From assembly GCF_001638985.1 (NCBI RefSeq), contig NW_017265146.1, positions 310,001-374,000 on the forward strand: DNA of 64,000 nt. Reading direction: 5' to 3'. The notes under the pieces were generated by a model. The model was given only the letters and a program-made list of their open reading frames with translations. It was not told the DNA's origin and searched no databases. This DNA comes from Phycomyces blakesleeanus NRRL 1555(-) (taxonomy: Eukaryota > Mucoromycota > Mucoromycetes > Mucorales > Phycomycetaceae). Below are positions 50,465 to 64,000 of the stretch, in pieces. The position numbers were made by a program, and so were the translations under genes. How positions within the stretch are numbered: the first letter of the stretch is position 1; each line of letters begins with the position of its first letter.

Positions 50465-53400
50465 CTAATACAAATCGTTCAAGACCTCATATTCATCCGC
50501 GAGTATTTCCTTTACGTGTTCAGGCAATTTATCATGGGTCGAAGCAGTTTTGACTGCGGCCGAAAGAATGTCCTTCCATTGTTGAATTTCTTCAACATCA
50601 GGGGATAAAGCCAATATTTGATGAACCCACGCCAGAAGGCCATTGTATTTGATCAAACTTCCACTGACAGAAGGAATAGATGTAGCTTGTTCCATGATCT
50701 AACAAAGCAAATGTATATTAATAAAATGGCATTACCTCTTTTTTCTTCTTATTTTTTGTACTTATTATAGTTTTTTTATACCTCTATTATAGCCTTTTTG
50801 CTAGCTTGGTCTGCCAACGCAGAACTGTAAAATACTGCAATCATATCCCAAATACGTTGTCTTGCAAACATTTTATAATCCTTTGAATAAAAAGCCAGTT
50901 ATTGATCTTTTTCCATTTTCTAGTATATAAAATTTTATCAAGTACTTACCTCGTATGTACGCATTGAAGATGACAGTACACGCAACATCCACAAACGTTC
51001 CTTCTTATGGTTCTCTGACGAAGAAGAGAAAAGTAATCCGAAAAGAGGAACATACTATAGGCAATATACGCACGTACAGTTAGATATATATAATTGGTTT
51101 CTACAAAACTTACGTTAAAATCAAATGCCGCACTTTGTGTCATCCATTTGGCAAGGTAAGGAAGCATATAATGCCCTGGGTGAAGAATGATAGAAAGAGC
51201 ATGAGCTACACACACGGTGACTGCAGCAGGTATCCGAGGAGGAACATCATTGCTAGATCTTCCTACAATAGAATTCTTAAAGACATCTAACAAGAACAGG
51301 ATTTCACTTTGTTCTCTAAACTTGGCGTGCTATTAAAGATATTAATAAGAGAAAGAAGATCAAAACAACTCCCTTAGCATCATGTTAACTTACATCAAGA
51401 ATCACATAGAATTGATCCATGATTTGGAATGCAATCCGTCTCACATTTTCATCGAGAGAAGACATTGAAACACTGACAAATCCAAGTGCGTTACATTCAA
51501 TAAACTTGCGACAATCTGCTGCTCCGCTGGAAATGAGGTTCGCAAACAAAGGCAAGAAAAAGTCAGGGTCATATGTAACCTGTTTTTGTTCATTTTCATC
51601 AGGTATCTTAGGATCTGAAAGAGTGGCATCCACGGGGAAATGAGAAAATGTATACTTCATCAGACCAGGATCAACCAAACCCAATGTCTCTAGTGAAATT
51701 GTGTTTGCCTGAAGAAGAGTTCCAGCCTGAGCATGGGCTTGACGTGTTTTATCAGATCCTGGACCCCACATTAACAGTTTAGGCAAAATTGTCTCACGCC
51801 CGTTTCGTTCACAAGTCATGAGTATTTGAAGAATAAGTCGATCAGTGAATGAAGTTGTAGCACTGTAGCTCGTCAAGAGAGGATCAAGCAAACCATGGTG
51901 TTTGCTGAGTACATTTGGTTGGATTTCGTTGAGAGCGTGGATCAAAGAAATAATGGCCTTTCGTTGTGTTTCATTCTCTGGTTCTTCTGAATCAGTGATC
52001 TTTTGAATTGTAGGAGTTGTGAGGTTTTGGTATTGATCATGATCAAGTACACGGCGTACGTAAGTTTCAATAGGCTCATTCTTTTCATACTAAGATGGAC
52101 AAAATATATGTATTAATATTACCAAGAATAAAAGCTCAATACATAAAATGTACTTACATTTTCGTAAACACGCTTTGTCAAGGCAGTTGTGAATCGAATG
52201 GCTTCTGCGTCGGCAATATTGTCGAGTAGTGTAGTAAGGATAAAGTCACGAACAACCTCAGGATCCAAAATCTTCCAGTCGAAGTCCTCTAATGAGTTCT
52301 CCAACAAACTGGTGAGTTTATCATAGAAATTTTCGATAGGTTCAACATCTGACATCTTGTTCGCATCTGCTGCCGCAGTCAACTGCTTTAGTATGTGTTC
52401 CAGAACTTGCTGAACGTAATCTGTTCGTTCTTCGGCAGTTTCTGGGAACAAGTCATACCCCATTTGGATCAGCTCCACCAAAGACGGTGTCAAGGGCAAA
52501 GAATCTTTGAGGCTATTGAGAATAATAGCAAATACTGCGACAGACGATCGTTGACAAGATTCACGTAAAACAGCCATATCTGTCTTGGTGTCTTTTCCTG
52601 AAAGGATATGACCGATTATGGGAGCGCAACATACATCCAAAAGAACAGAAAGTGCTTCTCGATCCTGTGCGTTTGTCATGCTTAATTCCAATAGTGACAG
52701 GATATCAGCTTCCAGAGCTGGTGAAGGGCGCTTTTCCCATAGCTTGGTGATCACAGCAAATGTTTCGCTAGGAATTACGAAATTATCTGAATCGGAACGG
52801 CGGCGGACATCACCAACAAGTGCAATCAGCAATCGGATTGTAGTCTCAAAAAATAAGATGTTGGATTTTTTGCAGTGTGCAAACAAGGCGTCATAGTCTA
52901 CACGAACGAGAGAGTTCATCAACTCTCTCGCATTCAAACCATCTCCTAAAATATCAACGTAGGCAACAGCTACGTCAAGAATCTAATTCGAAAATAAATA
53001 TAACGTTTAATTGCTTTCTCATTACGTTAATTTTTTTTGGAGTAGTAACTTACACATGTATCGAATACATCAGGAAAACTTGCTTCATTTTGCAGTTGTT
53101 TTATTAACGAAATAACCTTTGTAAATACGTCTTTTAAGGCAGGATGATCAAGCACCAGATTCTTAAGATAATGGCGCGTTTTCAGGTCATGGCTTTTTTC
53201 CAGTACATTCAGTGCATGTCTCAAGATACCAAAGGTGAGAAAAAGAGGCGATTTGATTTCTTTGGTATCGGATAGAAGAAGCATAGTGAGATGTTCGAGT
53301 ACCAAATGAATTGCATGAGATAGCTTTGTAGGTGACATTTTCTCCATAGCATTCTGCATAAGAGGTAATACAACACGGCTAGTTTGTTTTTGTGCCCATG

Positions 53401-56400
53401 CATTGTAAAATAGTGTTGTAAATGGTATGGCTTTTAGTAGTCCAAGGATGGCCTCACTATATTTCAGAGTCATGAAAAAACAGATAAGTAGAATATTTTA
53501 ATAAACGGCAGCGAACTTACTGTTCCGGGGAATCAATAGAAGTCAACTTTTTTACTTCAGCATTGTCAAATAAACTTCCAGAAAGAGGATAGCGCTCGGA
53601 GATGTAGGCAACAAGAGGTTCGTAAGAAGACCACCCAAGGTTCTGGCCACATAATGTGACTACGTTAATTAAGTTCTTGGAAAATACATTAACGGGTAAT
53701 ATTTCGAGCATATCAACCATTTTCTTTTGCATATCAGGAACAGTATCATGATCTATTATTGGTTGTAGTTTTTGTCAAAATTTAAGGTCCTTATTAATAA
53801 AGTCTAAGTATATATATATACATTAATGCATATTGTATTACCTTTAATCAATGCGATCAACTCGCCCTCAAGTTCGGTATCTAAACCCGACGCTTCAGTA
53901 CAGGGTTCTTTGGTCTTTTGTTCCAAACATTGTTGTGTCTGTGTTATCATTTCATTCACGCCCCACTCAGAAATTTCTTGAGGGTTTAAGATAGTTTTTG
54001 TTTCACAAGTCTCTGCGAGTTTCTCGGAAAAATACTGCAAGTAAAAGGGGGCTTTTTGCTTCGAAAGCAAAAGAGTTATGAGTTTGGTAAGGAATCGGAC
54101 GATAGGTCGTTTTTCGATACTGATAAGATTAAAATATTCAAAAAGAGTCAACAACAGAGGGCTGAACGGATGGGTGTATTCGGAGAAACCGTTTGTGCCA
54201 TCATCTGCCATAGAAGATGTATCGTTGGTGCTGATAACGGACCGTAGGAGGGCATTAGATGTTGTTTTAGAAATTTCTCCATTTTCCAGGGCTGATTTGT
54301 TTGTATTTTCGACAAGGCCGGCTAATTGATCTGAATATTTATACTGTGCTTTTCCAAATCGGATTATACCACCATCAAGGAATTTTAGAACGGTAGATTG
54401 CTCTTCGGAAAGAGATACATCTTCGTTTCCGGAACGAACAAAATTATGAGGAAGAGCATCAAGCCAGAGTTCCACTTCTTCTGGGTCATGCTTGAACATA
54501 AAGGAGTCGGCAAGAGTTTTGTGTACAAGCTTTCCCGTAAGGTTTCGAATATGCTTGTAAGGTGTACGAAGGTAAAGAGTCAACAAGGTGGTGATATGAG
54601 AAAATGAGTCGGCAGCTATAAATCGGGTTAGAACACTCAAATAATTCTTTTTTAGCACTTTTTTTAAAAAGAAAAGTTTAAGTTTATTACCAGCTTTGTT
54701 TGTCCACTTGAAGTCTGGGGAGCACAAGAGAAGTTCAAGAAGATGAACAAGAGAGCTGGGACGAACAGACAGGATATCAGAAGGGACAAAGTTACTAGGG
54801 TCTGTGTTGGATTCCATGATTGTTTCGGGCAAGAATTCTTGGTAGTATCGAATCAAGCGAAAAGCACTATCTCCCAGCATTTCATTCTGTGCATCAAATT
54901 CTTGTTCGTCCACACCTTCGGGTGCCTTTTCCTTCTTTTTTCCAGAAGTTTGACTGTGAATAGCGACAAACACATATAGCTCGGGGACTCTACGCCTTAA
55001 ACCTTCGCGTATGCCCTCCAAACACTTTTGCCATTGTCTTGATGGGAGCTCCTCAATAGTGTCATTAAGTATTTTTGAACTCTCTTCACTGTCTTCCAAG
55101 GTTGAGATTACTTGATTGATTGCTTTTGTGACCTTGGCATGTTTTTGGAATGCAGCTGCCAAAATAAGCATTGTAGTATAACGGACTAATGGACTAGCAT
55201 GTAAAAGACCTTTTGTAGAGAAACTACGTCCGAATACATTTGGAATTGTGTTTCCAAGTATGGTTTCAATTTCTGGTGGCGTTGCACGGTAGAGTTGGGT
55301 ATCTCCGTAGTAGAAAGATGGTGGAGATATCTGGATAGTCTTTTGAAGCAATGATGCATTAGCAAGCCACTTGCTACTAATACGGGGTTCGAGGGTCATT
55401 GAAGTTGTCTTCCAGTAGCTATAGCAATGACGTTTAGTTATTTGTGACAAAAATATATGTTATGCTAATATTTTACCTTTCAATTAGTTCAGGGCAAGCA
55501 GTCAGAATTTTCAAAAGAAGTTCCTGTTGACGAATATCATCGGCAGGCTTTAAACTCAGGATAAATTTAGAAAGAACGCGGTTCTGAATCTTCCCCCCTT
55601 TTACACCTTCTTCTACATTTCCGTCAACAAGAGTATTTGCGGGGTACCAGCCAGCATCACGGAAGCAGACGCCAATACCAGGTACAGTACATGCATCAAT
55701 GAGGAATTTATGAGCTAAGTCTGCAGGTATTCCAGTATCTGTAGATGATATTTGTTCGGGTTCGTTACGAGCATATATTTTTGCAACCTGGATGATGTTA
55801 GATAAGTATATTACATAAAGAATCTGTAATTTGTTTTGCTTTACCTGCTCAAGCATGTAGGATGAAAAAAAGTGGGTCTTTGCAAGTCTGGAAATTTTAA
55901 AGTCCATTAAAAGATATTCGTACAGCACCGAAAGCGTTTCTTTGATCAACTAATATATACATGCATGAATTATTATATCAACGTCTTATACAAAGAATCA
56001 GATTATTTATTATTCTCTTACCGGATAAGCATCATTTTCTATTCCACTAAGAATACCACTAACGAATCCTTTGATACCAAGCAACTGCTTTTTGATATCA
56101 GCATCTCCGTTTCTCAGAAACGCAAGTACCAATTCGACATAGTTTGTTCTCAGGTCTAAATAATGGAATATTAATACAATTGATAGGATATATACTTAAT
56201 TCTGGTTATTATTATTTGGCCTACCATATATATAATTATGAACATTATTGTTCTTTTTGTTTTGTCTATAGCGAGATGCTCTCAAGAACCCCTATAAATT
56301 CGTTACATACGTTTATATATAATGTTCTCATGTGTCTTATTTTTGGTATGTTTGTACTTGCCTCTGTCTGAAAATTGAATGAATGAAACAAATCTCGTGC

Positions 56401-57179
56401 AGTTGACTGATTGAATGAGCAAATTGAAGTCAATAACTTAAATGTAGACTGGCATTGCGGGATACGCATAGATGATATGCCTCTGTAAATGTACTTCATT
56501 TGCTTCTCTAGGATGTAATAAATAAGTAGGGGGTTAAGGATGTATAATATGTAAACAATATAGTCGGCGCATATCGGTTTAATATATTTAAAAAGGATAT
56601 TGTCTGAATGAGTTGAAGACCAAAAGCCCGAATAATAGGTGTCATGCAGAGTCGAATGAACATGCTAATTATATCAGGTACCATACATTCCAAATTTTGA
56701 ATATGTGCCTTTGAGGAAAAAAAAGATGTTAATTTAAATTATTACTTTTTTAACTTTACTTCTAAATTAGTGCCAGTGAAGTAGAATGTAAACTCACGGT
56801 AGATTGGTAATCCCACAACCTTGTCAGATCCCCACAATCAGAGCAACCCTGAACATATTCCACTAGTGGTCGAGTTGACTTGACCATGGGATCAACACGG
56901 CCACGGATAGCATTGGATAATTGAGCTCTCAATTTACCAAGGGCTTTGTTTATAAAGACAGATTTTTTTTCGACAAGCATGTATTAAAATTAGATTGAAT
57001 TGCTGTTTTCCAAAAATGGAGAACTCGAAGAGACGTTTACCTCGTACCATCGTTTCAATGTCGCATACTTTCAAAGCCTCGGCAATCTCAACTGGTTTTC
57101 TATAATAATCATTATCCATTTGATTTTGTTGTGGTTTTTTGTCTTTTGCGATAGACGATTGATCTTCTTTGCTCTTCAT
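50465..57179 (-). CDS. URB1: URB1/Npa1 ribosome-biogenesis HEAT-repeat protein
   Basis: Nucleolar scaffold of early pre-60S particles. Sixteen exons on the minus strand: 57179-57041, 56943-56798, 56708-56601, 56514-56358, 56155-56022, 55949-55845, 55787-55477, 55418-53842, 53752-53521, 53456-53054, 52982-52158, 52089-51394, 51329-51114, 51054-50950, 50880-50782, 50698-50465; 1828 aa (yeast Urb1 1764), all phases matching. Family features: [99 protein letters not shown], and near the C-terminus [17 protein letters not shown]. The N-terminus is Lys/Gln-rich. The third intron (56515-56600) is of AT-AC type, listed separately. The downstream part is a long alpha-helical solenoid with few other motifs. 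Confidence 0.93.
56515..56600 (-). other. URB1: U12-type AT-AC intron in URB1
   Basis: An 86-base intron read on the minus strand. It begins ATATCCTTTT, matching the U12 5' splice-site consensus ATATCCTTT. It contains ATCCTTAACCCC, matching the U12 branch consensus TTCCTTRAC, 19 bases before the end. It ends in TTATTTATTAC. Removing it joins ..GLQLIQT to [15 protein letters not shown], a continuous conserved URB1 helix, in phase 0. The GT donor GTTTAC inside does not restore frame with the nearby AG acceptors. One phase-compatible GT-AG choice (donor GTCTTC 26 bases earlier) would delete nine conserved-looking residues and has a poor donor. Confidence 0.85.
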
Positions 57180-57799: not shown

Positions 57800-59430
57800 A
57801 TGGATCACCCTGATACTCCTTCTCCTCCTTCTCCTTTATCGCGTAATTATAATGGAAATACGGGGCCTAATTTAACCGGTTTACCGCTTAATAAGCAAGG
57901 CTACTCTATAATGAAATCCTCGTCAAATCGGCATGCCATTCGGATAGCCAATCTTCCTCCACTCAACCTCTCCCGAAAATCATCACTAGAATATAATTAT
58001 ACCTCTCATAGTCCATCATATGCTACCTCGGCCATCCTCTCCAGTCGCAGCATGAGCACGGACACGCATCCCCAAGTACCCGATCCCAACCCATCCAACC
58101 AAAAACTCCTGGAGGCTTGCCAAAACGTTTCATTTCTCTCCACTCTTATACACACAACTCTCTATAAATGTCTCGACTTTTGTGTTAGCGATAAACTCAC
58201 TGGAACACTCTTACCCTCTTTGCAAAATTCGAGGTCATGTACAGACAAACTGGCTATGGCACTTCATCAAATCGATTACCAAATGGCTCGGCAGCCATCA
58301 CCAAGCCCAGCATTTGAGATTGATCTCGTCAAGGTTGCCAAGGCTTGCATCATTTCGCTCCGAGAACTTTGCAAGCGGGTTAAAGATTGTCTCAGCCTAT
58401 TTGTTCATATCCTGGATCCTAAACATGCTAGGAATTTGGTGATGACTCTTCATTGCGCCACAGTAGACCTCAAAGAAGCCTGGGAAATGATCATTTCTCT
58501 TCCCGTAGCTGTCCACACCTTATCTCTTCAACCGAACCTTTCGGCTCCCACGGACTTTCATTCTACCAATAATCATCATCCCTCCCTACCTCGTGCTAGA
58601 TCTGCAAGTGAGCACCATGCGGCCTCACCTGCCATGTCACCCCTCGCTTCTCCCTGTACAGCTGAAGATAGTACTCAATTGCTTGGGCATCTCAAATTAG
58701 CTGTCACTGGCTCACTTCATGTAGTTGACTTACTTAATCTATCCATTGAAGCGTCCACAGGAACTGATACCCTAAAGCAAAAGCTCCACTCGCTCGGCAG
58801 GCAAGCCCAGCAAGCAGTTGATATGGCCCTATGTTTAGACAAGAGTTTAGAGAACATCATGGCAAAAGGAAACGGACTCGGTATGAATTCCTTGTTCACT
58901 TCTTCTACATCCCAGCTACCCAACATTGTGTCACCACCTAGCCCTTCTTTACACAAGGATTCAAGCCGAAAATTGTGGGAAGATACAACAGCATACTTAA
59001 AGGTAATTAATTGTTGTTATTATTATTATTATTATTATTTAAAAGGGGGGTTTTAGGAATCTAAAGGTCACAAGTTATTGTTTTTATTTTCAAGTCTATT
59101 CTATCGGTGATGAGCTCTATACGGTCTATTTCTACTGAAGAAGACTTTACTTGGCCAAAGGCAGTTAAACAAGGATGCCTACACGTTACACGAGTGACAG
59201 CGGAAGTAGCAAAATTATGGAACAACTACAGCATATTCGCAAAACATGGCTATTATCTTGGAAAGGGAGACAATTCTAGCAAACAACATGCGACGCACAG
59301 AAGTATGAGTGGTATTGACACCAGTCAGGCATATGCAACTCCTTCATTTGAACCAACATCTACCATGCGTAGACACAAGAGTCAGACCAGCTATGGCATG
59401 AGGAGCATGAGTAACAAAACAGAAACTTGA
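57800..59430 (+). CDS. SOG2: SOG2-domain protein of the RAM signalling pathway
   Basis: Two exons: 57800-59002 and 59095-59430; 512 aa. The RAM network (Cbk1, Kic1, Mob2, Hym1, Tao3, Sog2 in yeast) controls polarised growth and cell separation. The Sog2-type region starts near residue 105 (LLEACQNVSFLSTLIHTTLY) and continues with LVKVAKACIISLRELCKRVKDC, TLHCATVDLKEAWEMI, LLGHLKLAVTGSLHVVDLLN and, in exon 2, GCLHVTRVTAEVAKLWNNYS. The N-terminus and several linkers are Ser/Pro-rich. The leucine-rich repeats that precede this region in yeast Sog2 are absent, and the upstream 620 bases do not encode them. The terminal part has RRHKSQTSYG, a possible basophilic kinase (NDR-type HxRxxS-like) site. 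Confidence 0.82.
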
Positions 59431-62505: not shown

Positions 62506-64000
62506 ATGTCTCATACTATACTTTCATCAAATACACATAAAATATATAATTCCCATGTCTGGTTTACATCCATCACAATTGTAGCTATAGCAGGTACAAT
62601 TTTGTATCAACGCCGGCGAAAACATATTGCCCGTACCACAGAACAACAAGTGAAGGACTATCTTTTGAAAACAAGAGAACCCGAGACGTCTCAAACAAAA
62701 TCTACTGAAAATAGTGAAGATGAAGGCGGCCTAGCATCTTACTTAACCTTACCATCTATCGAGAGCGCAGACGAATTCATAAGCAGTTTATTCTCAACAT
62801 ATTATCTGCCTTATATTCCATCCGTCGCCATACCTAACATGCCATCACTGGAAGACATTAATAACCGTATATCAGACATGTATCCTGGTTTTATGGGTCA
62901 ATTTGAAGCTATAAGAGAGAGCTACACAAATTTCTGGGAATTCCTTTCTTTAGAAGATTTTAGAAAGATGGTAGAAGAAACCCGGAAGGATGACACAAAT
63001 GCGAGTGTGTTCCCAGAGATCGAAAAGGATGCTTCCGTACGGTACGTGCAGGTCAAAAAGAAAGTTGATTGTGGGTTTGTAACAATGATTTTTTGCTTAG
63101 TATGGGGACCGGTCTATCAGAAGATGAGATATCATTCATAAAGGCAAGAAAACTGAAAATTCGGGATGCATTTGCACATTTCATTGGAGTTGATCCATCA
63201 TTAGTTGAAGAAGAAGATGTTCCTGTGATTGGAATTGCGTCAAGGTAAGTAGGCTAGTAATAGAAAGAATATCCGAGCAGATTGGCTAATAATTTAATGC
63301 TTTCAATAGTGGTGGCGGGTACCGTGCTATGGTGGCTAGCTCGGCATATATGAAAGCTATGGACGATACGGGATTGATGGATTGTGTGATGTACATGGCT
63401 GGTGTTTCCGGATCAACGTGGGCTATCGCACAATACTTTAGTTCCTTGACGAATGCATCGTTCTCGGCCCTTCAAGACCATCTCAAGAGTCATCTACACA
63501 CACACATTGCCAATGTATCCAATTTTCTGACTGTTCTGTACGCCTCTGCGCACAACACTAAAGTACTATTACGTGGTGTAATACAACGCTATTATCAGCA
63601 AGAGGGTACACTCAATCTTGTCGATGTCTTTGGACTCTTGCTTGGCGGTACTCTCCTGACTACCATGGAAGAAGTTTCTCCGTCTGATAAAGCCGATAAT
63701 GACATTAATGAAGACCAAGCGAAGGAATACACTGAAAAAATCGAGCCCAAAGAAGTCTCCAAGGAACAACAAAGGGGAACTGAAAAGGGAACCATAAAAG
63801 AAGATGACGGAGCAGAGAAACGGCCTCGATTAATAGGCAGAGCAGATCTGAAGTTATCAAACCAAAGACACTATATTGATGATGGATCGCAGCCAATGCC
63901 GATATATTGTGTTGTACGTCATGAAATAACCTACGCCACAGAAGATAAAGAGGATTCTAATAGTGAAGAGAGTAAGAATGATGTAGAAAAGGAGATTGAC
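62506..64000 (+). CDS. cytosolic-PLA2-like phospholipase, 5' part (cut by window end)
   Basis: Hydrolyses fatty-acyl esters of phospholipids. Exons in the window: 62506-63041, 63101-63244, 63310-64000 (frame open at the end); 457 codons seen. The N-terminus has a membrane span at about residues 17-38 (VWFTSITIVAIAGTILY) followed by RRRKH, so it is likely anchored with the catalytic part in the cytosol. The catalytic domain starts with PVIGIASSGGGYRAMVASSAY, carrying the oxyanion-hole Gly and the Arg of the Ser/Asp dyad family, then YMAGVSGSTWAIAQY with the nucleophile Ser in GxSGS. A charged Glu/Lys-rich insert (63660-63850) and a second acidic stretch at the window end separate the catalytic blocks. 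The Asp of the dyad would lie beyond 64000. Confidence 0.9.

Follow-up and report, generated by a model that had tools for sequence, protein, structure and literature searches.

The window analyzed here is a 64,000-nucleotide stretch of the Phycomyces blakesleeanus genome, numbered from its first letter. A whole URB1/Npa1 gene occupies the minus strand at 50468..57179, its exons placed one by one through matches to URB1 of P. nitens. URB1 is needed to build ribosomes and acts on the first 60S precursor. The domains PF11707 (Npa1) and PF16201 (NopRA1) were found together in the P. nitens orthologue (P0002), which the window matches exon by exon. The spliced window protein retrieved 39 URB1 homologues, headed by P. 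blakesleeanus (P0001), P. nitens and Spinellus. When P. nitens URB1 was searched against the 53.5 Mb genome, all 17 matches fell inside this one locus (window 50468-57179), and no second copy was seen at the sensitivity of that search. A few residues differ between the window protein and P0001 beyond model errors, which may point to another strain. The gene model is approximate past exon 8, where comparison with P0001 indicated that one in-frame intron was left unspliced and that at least one join is wrong. Exon 3 (56601..56708, minus strand) ends in ...GLQLIQT and exon 4 (56362..56514, minus strand) in NFQTE; exon 4 is followed by intron 4 (56292..56361, minus strand), a 70-nt GC-AG intron of the gene model with donor GCAAGT. 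With the AT-AC intron 3 described below, two non-canonical introns stand side by side. A gene with a SOG2 domain (RAM signalling) lies head to head with URB1 on the plus strand (57800-59430), and a partial PLA2_B lysophospholipase-type gene (63293-64000, plus strand) runs past the window end.

Intron 3 (56515..56600, minus strand) is 86 nt long, lies in phase 0 and was assigned to the U12-type AT-AC class from its sequence, pattern scans and splice-pair tests. Read on the minus strand, 56600..56515 is ATATCCTTTTTAAATATATTAAACCG...ATACATCCTTAACCCCCTACTTATTTATTAC. The 5' splice site ATATCCTTTT (56591..56600, minus strand) agrees with the RTATCCTT rule for U12 donors as excerpted from PMC2846911, and the branch-site motif ATCCTTAAC (56533..56541, minus strand), near the 3' end, agrees with the U12 branch consensus CCTTAAC as quoted in PMC3033335. 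Within the intron the branch motif reads ATCCTTAACCCC, also written TCCTTAAC; the branch A, the second A in TTAAC, is followed by 19 bases up to the end of the intron. The terminal AC is at 56515..56516 (minus strand). Both AT...AC termini and a conserved reading frame restored on splicing were found, and the start, branch position and AC finish given in the earlier note were all seen on the minus strand.

Three U12 patterns (strict, loose and very loose) were scanned over the whole 64 kb on both strands, and URB1 intron 3 was the sole match for each. Across 100 dinucleotide-preserving shuffles the expectation per window was 0.03 for the strict pattern; the loose and very loose patterns averaged 0.39 and 1.31, so the strict pattern alone is informative. 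RNA folding of the intron was ordinary (z -0.54). According to the passages of PMC10639083 used here, minor introns fall least often in phase 0, which counts against a U12 reading. A strict GT-type U12 pattern with spacing 35-65 gave 0 matches genome-wide and 0 in the reversed control, and is too narrow to count U12 introns.

The junction was then judged by its protein product. All 130 candidate splice pairs (GT-AG, GC-AG or AT-AC, from exon 3 to exon 4, frame open) were scored against the P. nitens orthologue. The top score, 436 against a self score of 454, went to AT-AC at 56600/56515, the runner-up scoring 421; the nine next-ranked pairs listed were likewise AT-AC, with intron codons left over. 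Spliced at 56600/56515, the product was identical to P. nitens URB1 at 84 of 87 residues, and joining 56601 to 56514 gave a continuous conserved URB1 reading in phase 0. Because five one-base shifts of the 86-nt interval yield the identical protein, the protein alone cannot fix the exact cut; the U12 consensus does. Conservation across the junction was assessed in an alignment of 33 fungal URB1 proteins (9 of the 39 homologues found with the spliced protein plus 24 new ones, P0040-P0063, from 120 matches listed). Thirty were ungapped across seven residues on each side, and the region was interrupted in P0029, P0057 and P0060. The earlier note had spoken of an uninterrupted URB1 helix: the conserved sequence is indeed uninterrupted, and the helix was not borne out, as a profile search matched URB1 to no solved structure.

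An enclosing U2-type GT-AG intron of 113 nt, running from donor G/GTCTTC in exon 3 to an acceptor at CCTAG in exon 4, would also keep the frame open without a stop, and its product (...IRAF-EKQMKY) would lack nine residues, much as the Lichtheimia hyalospora protein P0021 lacks the corresponding ones (IIRPF-DTRMKY). That join, however, removes a stretch kept in 30 of the 33 aligned homologues, falls outside the ten best-scoring pairs and leaves the U12 motifs unexplained. GTCTTC is moreover unlike the remaining donors of the URB1 model (GTAAAC, GTGAGT, GTAGGC, GTAAGA, GTAAAG, GTAAAA, GTAATA, GTAAGT, GTATTG and GCAAGT, the later ones approximate). We regard this intron as very improbable.

It is just as improbable that 56515..56600 is coding or retained sequence. 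An open frame does cross the intron (ORF 56266..56664), and the deposited P. blakesleeanus protein P0001 is annotated in this way, the intron being translated through in the exon-4 frame with exon 3 frame-shifted. The read-through frame nevertheless exchanges the conserved exon-3 protein for unrelated residues that P. nitens, Spinellus and others do not have, and an intron kept in the true exon-3 frame leads to a stop after 161 codons. The deposited URB1 model of P. blakesleeanus is wrong at the AT-AC intron, and annotation-based surveys of minor introns could therefore miss such cases. P0001 also carries extra residues at the GC-AG intron 4 that are absent from P. nitens.

Parts of a minor spliceosome, which the earlier note had expected in this organism, were recovered from the genome. 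Genes for U11 (56.3 bits, Rfam cut-off 39) and U6atac snRNA (58.1 bits, cut-off 33) are present. A likely U12 gene matched the whole model with an E value of 1.5e-6, at 46 bits below the cut-off of 53, and bears the branch-pairing sequence GAGTAAGGA. A genome devoid of U11/U12 snRNA genes, the outcome that the earlier note had named as fatal to its reading, was thus not what the search found. Of the four snRNAs for which that note had proposed a covariance-model search, two came out above cut-off, U12 fell short of it and U4atac was without a match. The U12 candidate (L001:1501-1698, minus strand) has an insert in one loop. The U11 candidate (L002:1501-1796, minus strand) measures 296 nt against a model of 134 positions, with about 160 nt, much of it low-complexity, inserted in one stem loop; MIR matches at this locus were under their cut-offs and lay over low-complexity sequence, and were dismissed as artefacts. 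For U4atac, no Rfam match was obtained in the genome at E<=0.001 or at E<=10, and a home-made pattern, built from the genome's own U6atac and the layout of human U4atac, likewise found none there; the controls were silent or uninformative, too weak for absence to be concluded.

The three RNAs are complementary to the intron. U11 AAAAAGG complements donor CCTTTTT over 7 contiguous Watson-Crick base pairs, U6atac AAAGGA complements donor TCCTTT over 6, and U12 TAAGGAT complements branch ATCCTTA over 7. The U12 of this genome reads AAGGAU against AAGGAA in the Rfam consensus, with a matching A in the intron's branch motif ATCCTTAAC (window 56541); judged from these sequences, a co-change is possible.

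AT-AC type II introns have U2-like donors such as ATAAGT. Introns with AT-AC ends that are removed by the major spliceosome do exist (PMC7072748, in the passage cited), and intron 3 could in principle be one; its donor and branch, however, match the U12 motifs in full and complement U11, U6atac and U12 of this organism, which makes this the most improbable of the readings weighed.

Several protein components of the minor spliceosome were matched as well. PF05253, the zinc finger of U11-48K, matches at genome locus L004, and the best solved-structure match of the hand-spliced L004 product was human U11/U12-48K in 8r7n (residues 8-219, E 6.6e-8). This zinc finger was found in one prokaryotic control too (Sulfolobus), and that of L004 gave a match to gametocyte-specific factor 1 as well; for this reason U11-48K was called on the longer match. 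A C-terminal PDCD7 match (last 54 positions) and a Ubiquitin_4 match, the latter a domain that we take to be that of SNRNP25, were both above cut-off in the genome. CCDC84/CENATAC gave no match in the genome, with the controls silent too; this protein promotes AT-AN introns in human cells according to the portion of PMC8280824 cited.

From these results there is little doubt, as far as sequence can tell, that 56515..56600 functions as a U12-type AT-AC intron within URB1/Npa1 of a P. blakesleeanus-type fungus, removed by the minor spliceosome. The U12 assignment made in the earlier note held: donor, branch and AC end agree, the strict pattern matches nowhere else in the window, and no other of the 130 pairs scored as high. 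Judged by complementarity, U11 and U12 most likely recognise donor and branch. U11 would pair with the donor at CCUUUUU, U12 would pair with the branch AUCCUUAAC with the branch A bulged, and U6atac would take the place of U11 at UCCUUU, after which the minor spliceosome would join 56601 to 56514 and exons 3 and 4 would yield full-length URB1. The major spliceosome would have no good substitute at the exon 3/4 junction, and full-length URB1 should therefore depend on minor splicing. The earlier note's proposal of such a dependence is a fair one, given a single locus and a retained form truncated after 161 residues. We infer splicing of the intron in the living fungus, and also a dependence of URB1 output on minor splicing. 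Yeast Npa1, the URB1 counterpart, is essential (PMC6136799, in the excerpt used), and by analogy, if that essentiality holds here, 60S assembly would presumably depend on the minor splicing of one transcript.

Traces of the intron were sought among deposited relatives by aligning the 39 homologues, of which P0001-P0026 were counted as Mucorales by name, two species appearing twice. Eight of the 26 Mucorales models are broken at the junction and the other 18 read across. Besides P0001 and the L. hyalospora model P0021, in which the residues around the junction are missing, the broken models comprise P0017 (Cunninghamella echinulata), with ISFFLL inserted exactly at the junction (ATATCCTTT encodes ISF); P0006 (Apophysomyces), from which exons 3 to 5 and the first part of exon 6 are missing; P0020 (Absidia cylindrospora) and P0023 (C. 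echinulata, the other record), which start directly past the junction; P0025 (C. blakesleeana), which starts about 100 residues past it; and P0026 (Rhizopus microsporus). The first 45 residues of P0026 read exon 3 and exon 4 as one contiguous stretch, one base out of frame: 41 of 45 positions are compatible with the protein of Sporodiniella, and among 200 shuffled controls the best reached 20. R. microsporus URB1 therefore appears, from this translated sequence, to have no intron at the junction, and P0026 was ruled out as a broken model hinting at one. P0017 is the sole relative with a positive trace of the intron; the skipped models are compatible with it, as weak evidence.

A sliding similarity count over the same models (n=26) placed 7 broken models at residues 124 and 127, 5 at 128-130, 6 at the junction (131), 3 at 134 and 136 and 2 at 140; the count was 0 from residue 260 onward, except in a variable loop at 330-359. 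Upstream of the junction the ten-residue maxima were likewise 3 to 7, and a count of at least 6 was reached at 25 of 443 positions, so the pattern is no proof. The high upstream counts are due in part to truncated models, in which the entire N-terminus is missing. The breakage of Mucorales models near the junction is suggestive of an effect of the intron, as far as the alignment goes.

U12 introns have been on record for P. blakesleeanus since 2010 (PMC2846911). The passages of that paper used here report, from 47,847 ESTs and by two methods, 9 or 8 AT-AC and 8 or 12 GT-AG U12 introns, along with 446 GC-AG introns. That study, which also covers Rhizopus oryzae, concerned the species of the window or its closest relative, with the same RTATCCTT donor rule and the same AT-AC class; its introns, unlike this one, were EST-derived. 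About 20 U12 introns are cited for P. blakesleeanus in the part of PMC10639083 consulted, which predicts 205 minor introns in Rhizophagus irregularis. The latter likewise belongs to the early-diverging fungi and has both minor introns and minor snRNAs, and differs from Phycomyces in that larger number; phase 0 is the rarest phase there (PMC10639083). Lichtheimia and other basal fungi resemble Phycomyces in that U11, U12 (in Phycomyces a likely one) and U6atac were found, with an atypical U12 and an extended U11 (PMC4133162, in the sections cited). The same sections give one U4atac copy in the basal fungi other than Lichtheimia and none in Lichtheimia itself; the former would differ in this from the Phycomyces genome, where the searches found none. 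For Apophysomyces, few minor-spliceosome components are recorded in the excerpt of PMC5604411 used.

The main texts of the literature searched yielded no printed record of this AT-AC intron in URB1, and a full-text search found none linking minor introns with Mucoromycota, or U12-type introns with ribosome biogenesis in Mucorales. The URB1 intron adds to the U12 introns known in P. blakesleeanus, where neither such introns nor minor snRNAs are new; what this analysis contributes is the error of the deposited model at the junction, together with the mixed traces seen in Mucorales.

A tentative wider reading, to which we give somewhat less than even confidence, is that the AT-AC intron is old in Mucorales URB1, has persisted in Phycomyces and Cunninghamella and disappeared from Rhizopus, and that gene callers restricted to GT/GC-AG introns break the gene there. 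If this is true, public annotation undercounts fungal AT-AC introns in essential genes, and how much minor spliceosome a cell has would limit the availability of a factor that acts on the first 60S precursor. URB1, found at one locus and with an essential yeast counterpart (PMC6136799, in the excerpt used), in any case offers one clean minor-intron gene for tests in a laboratory fungus.
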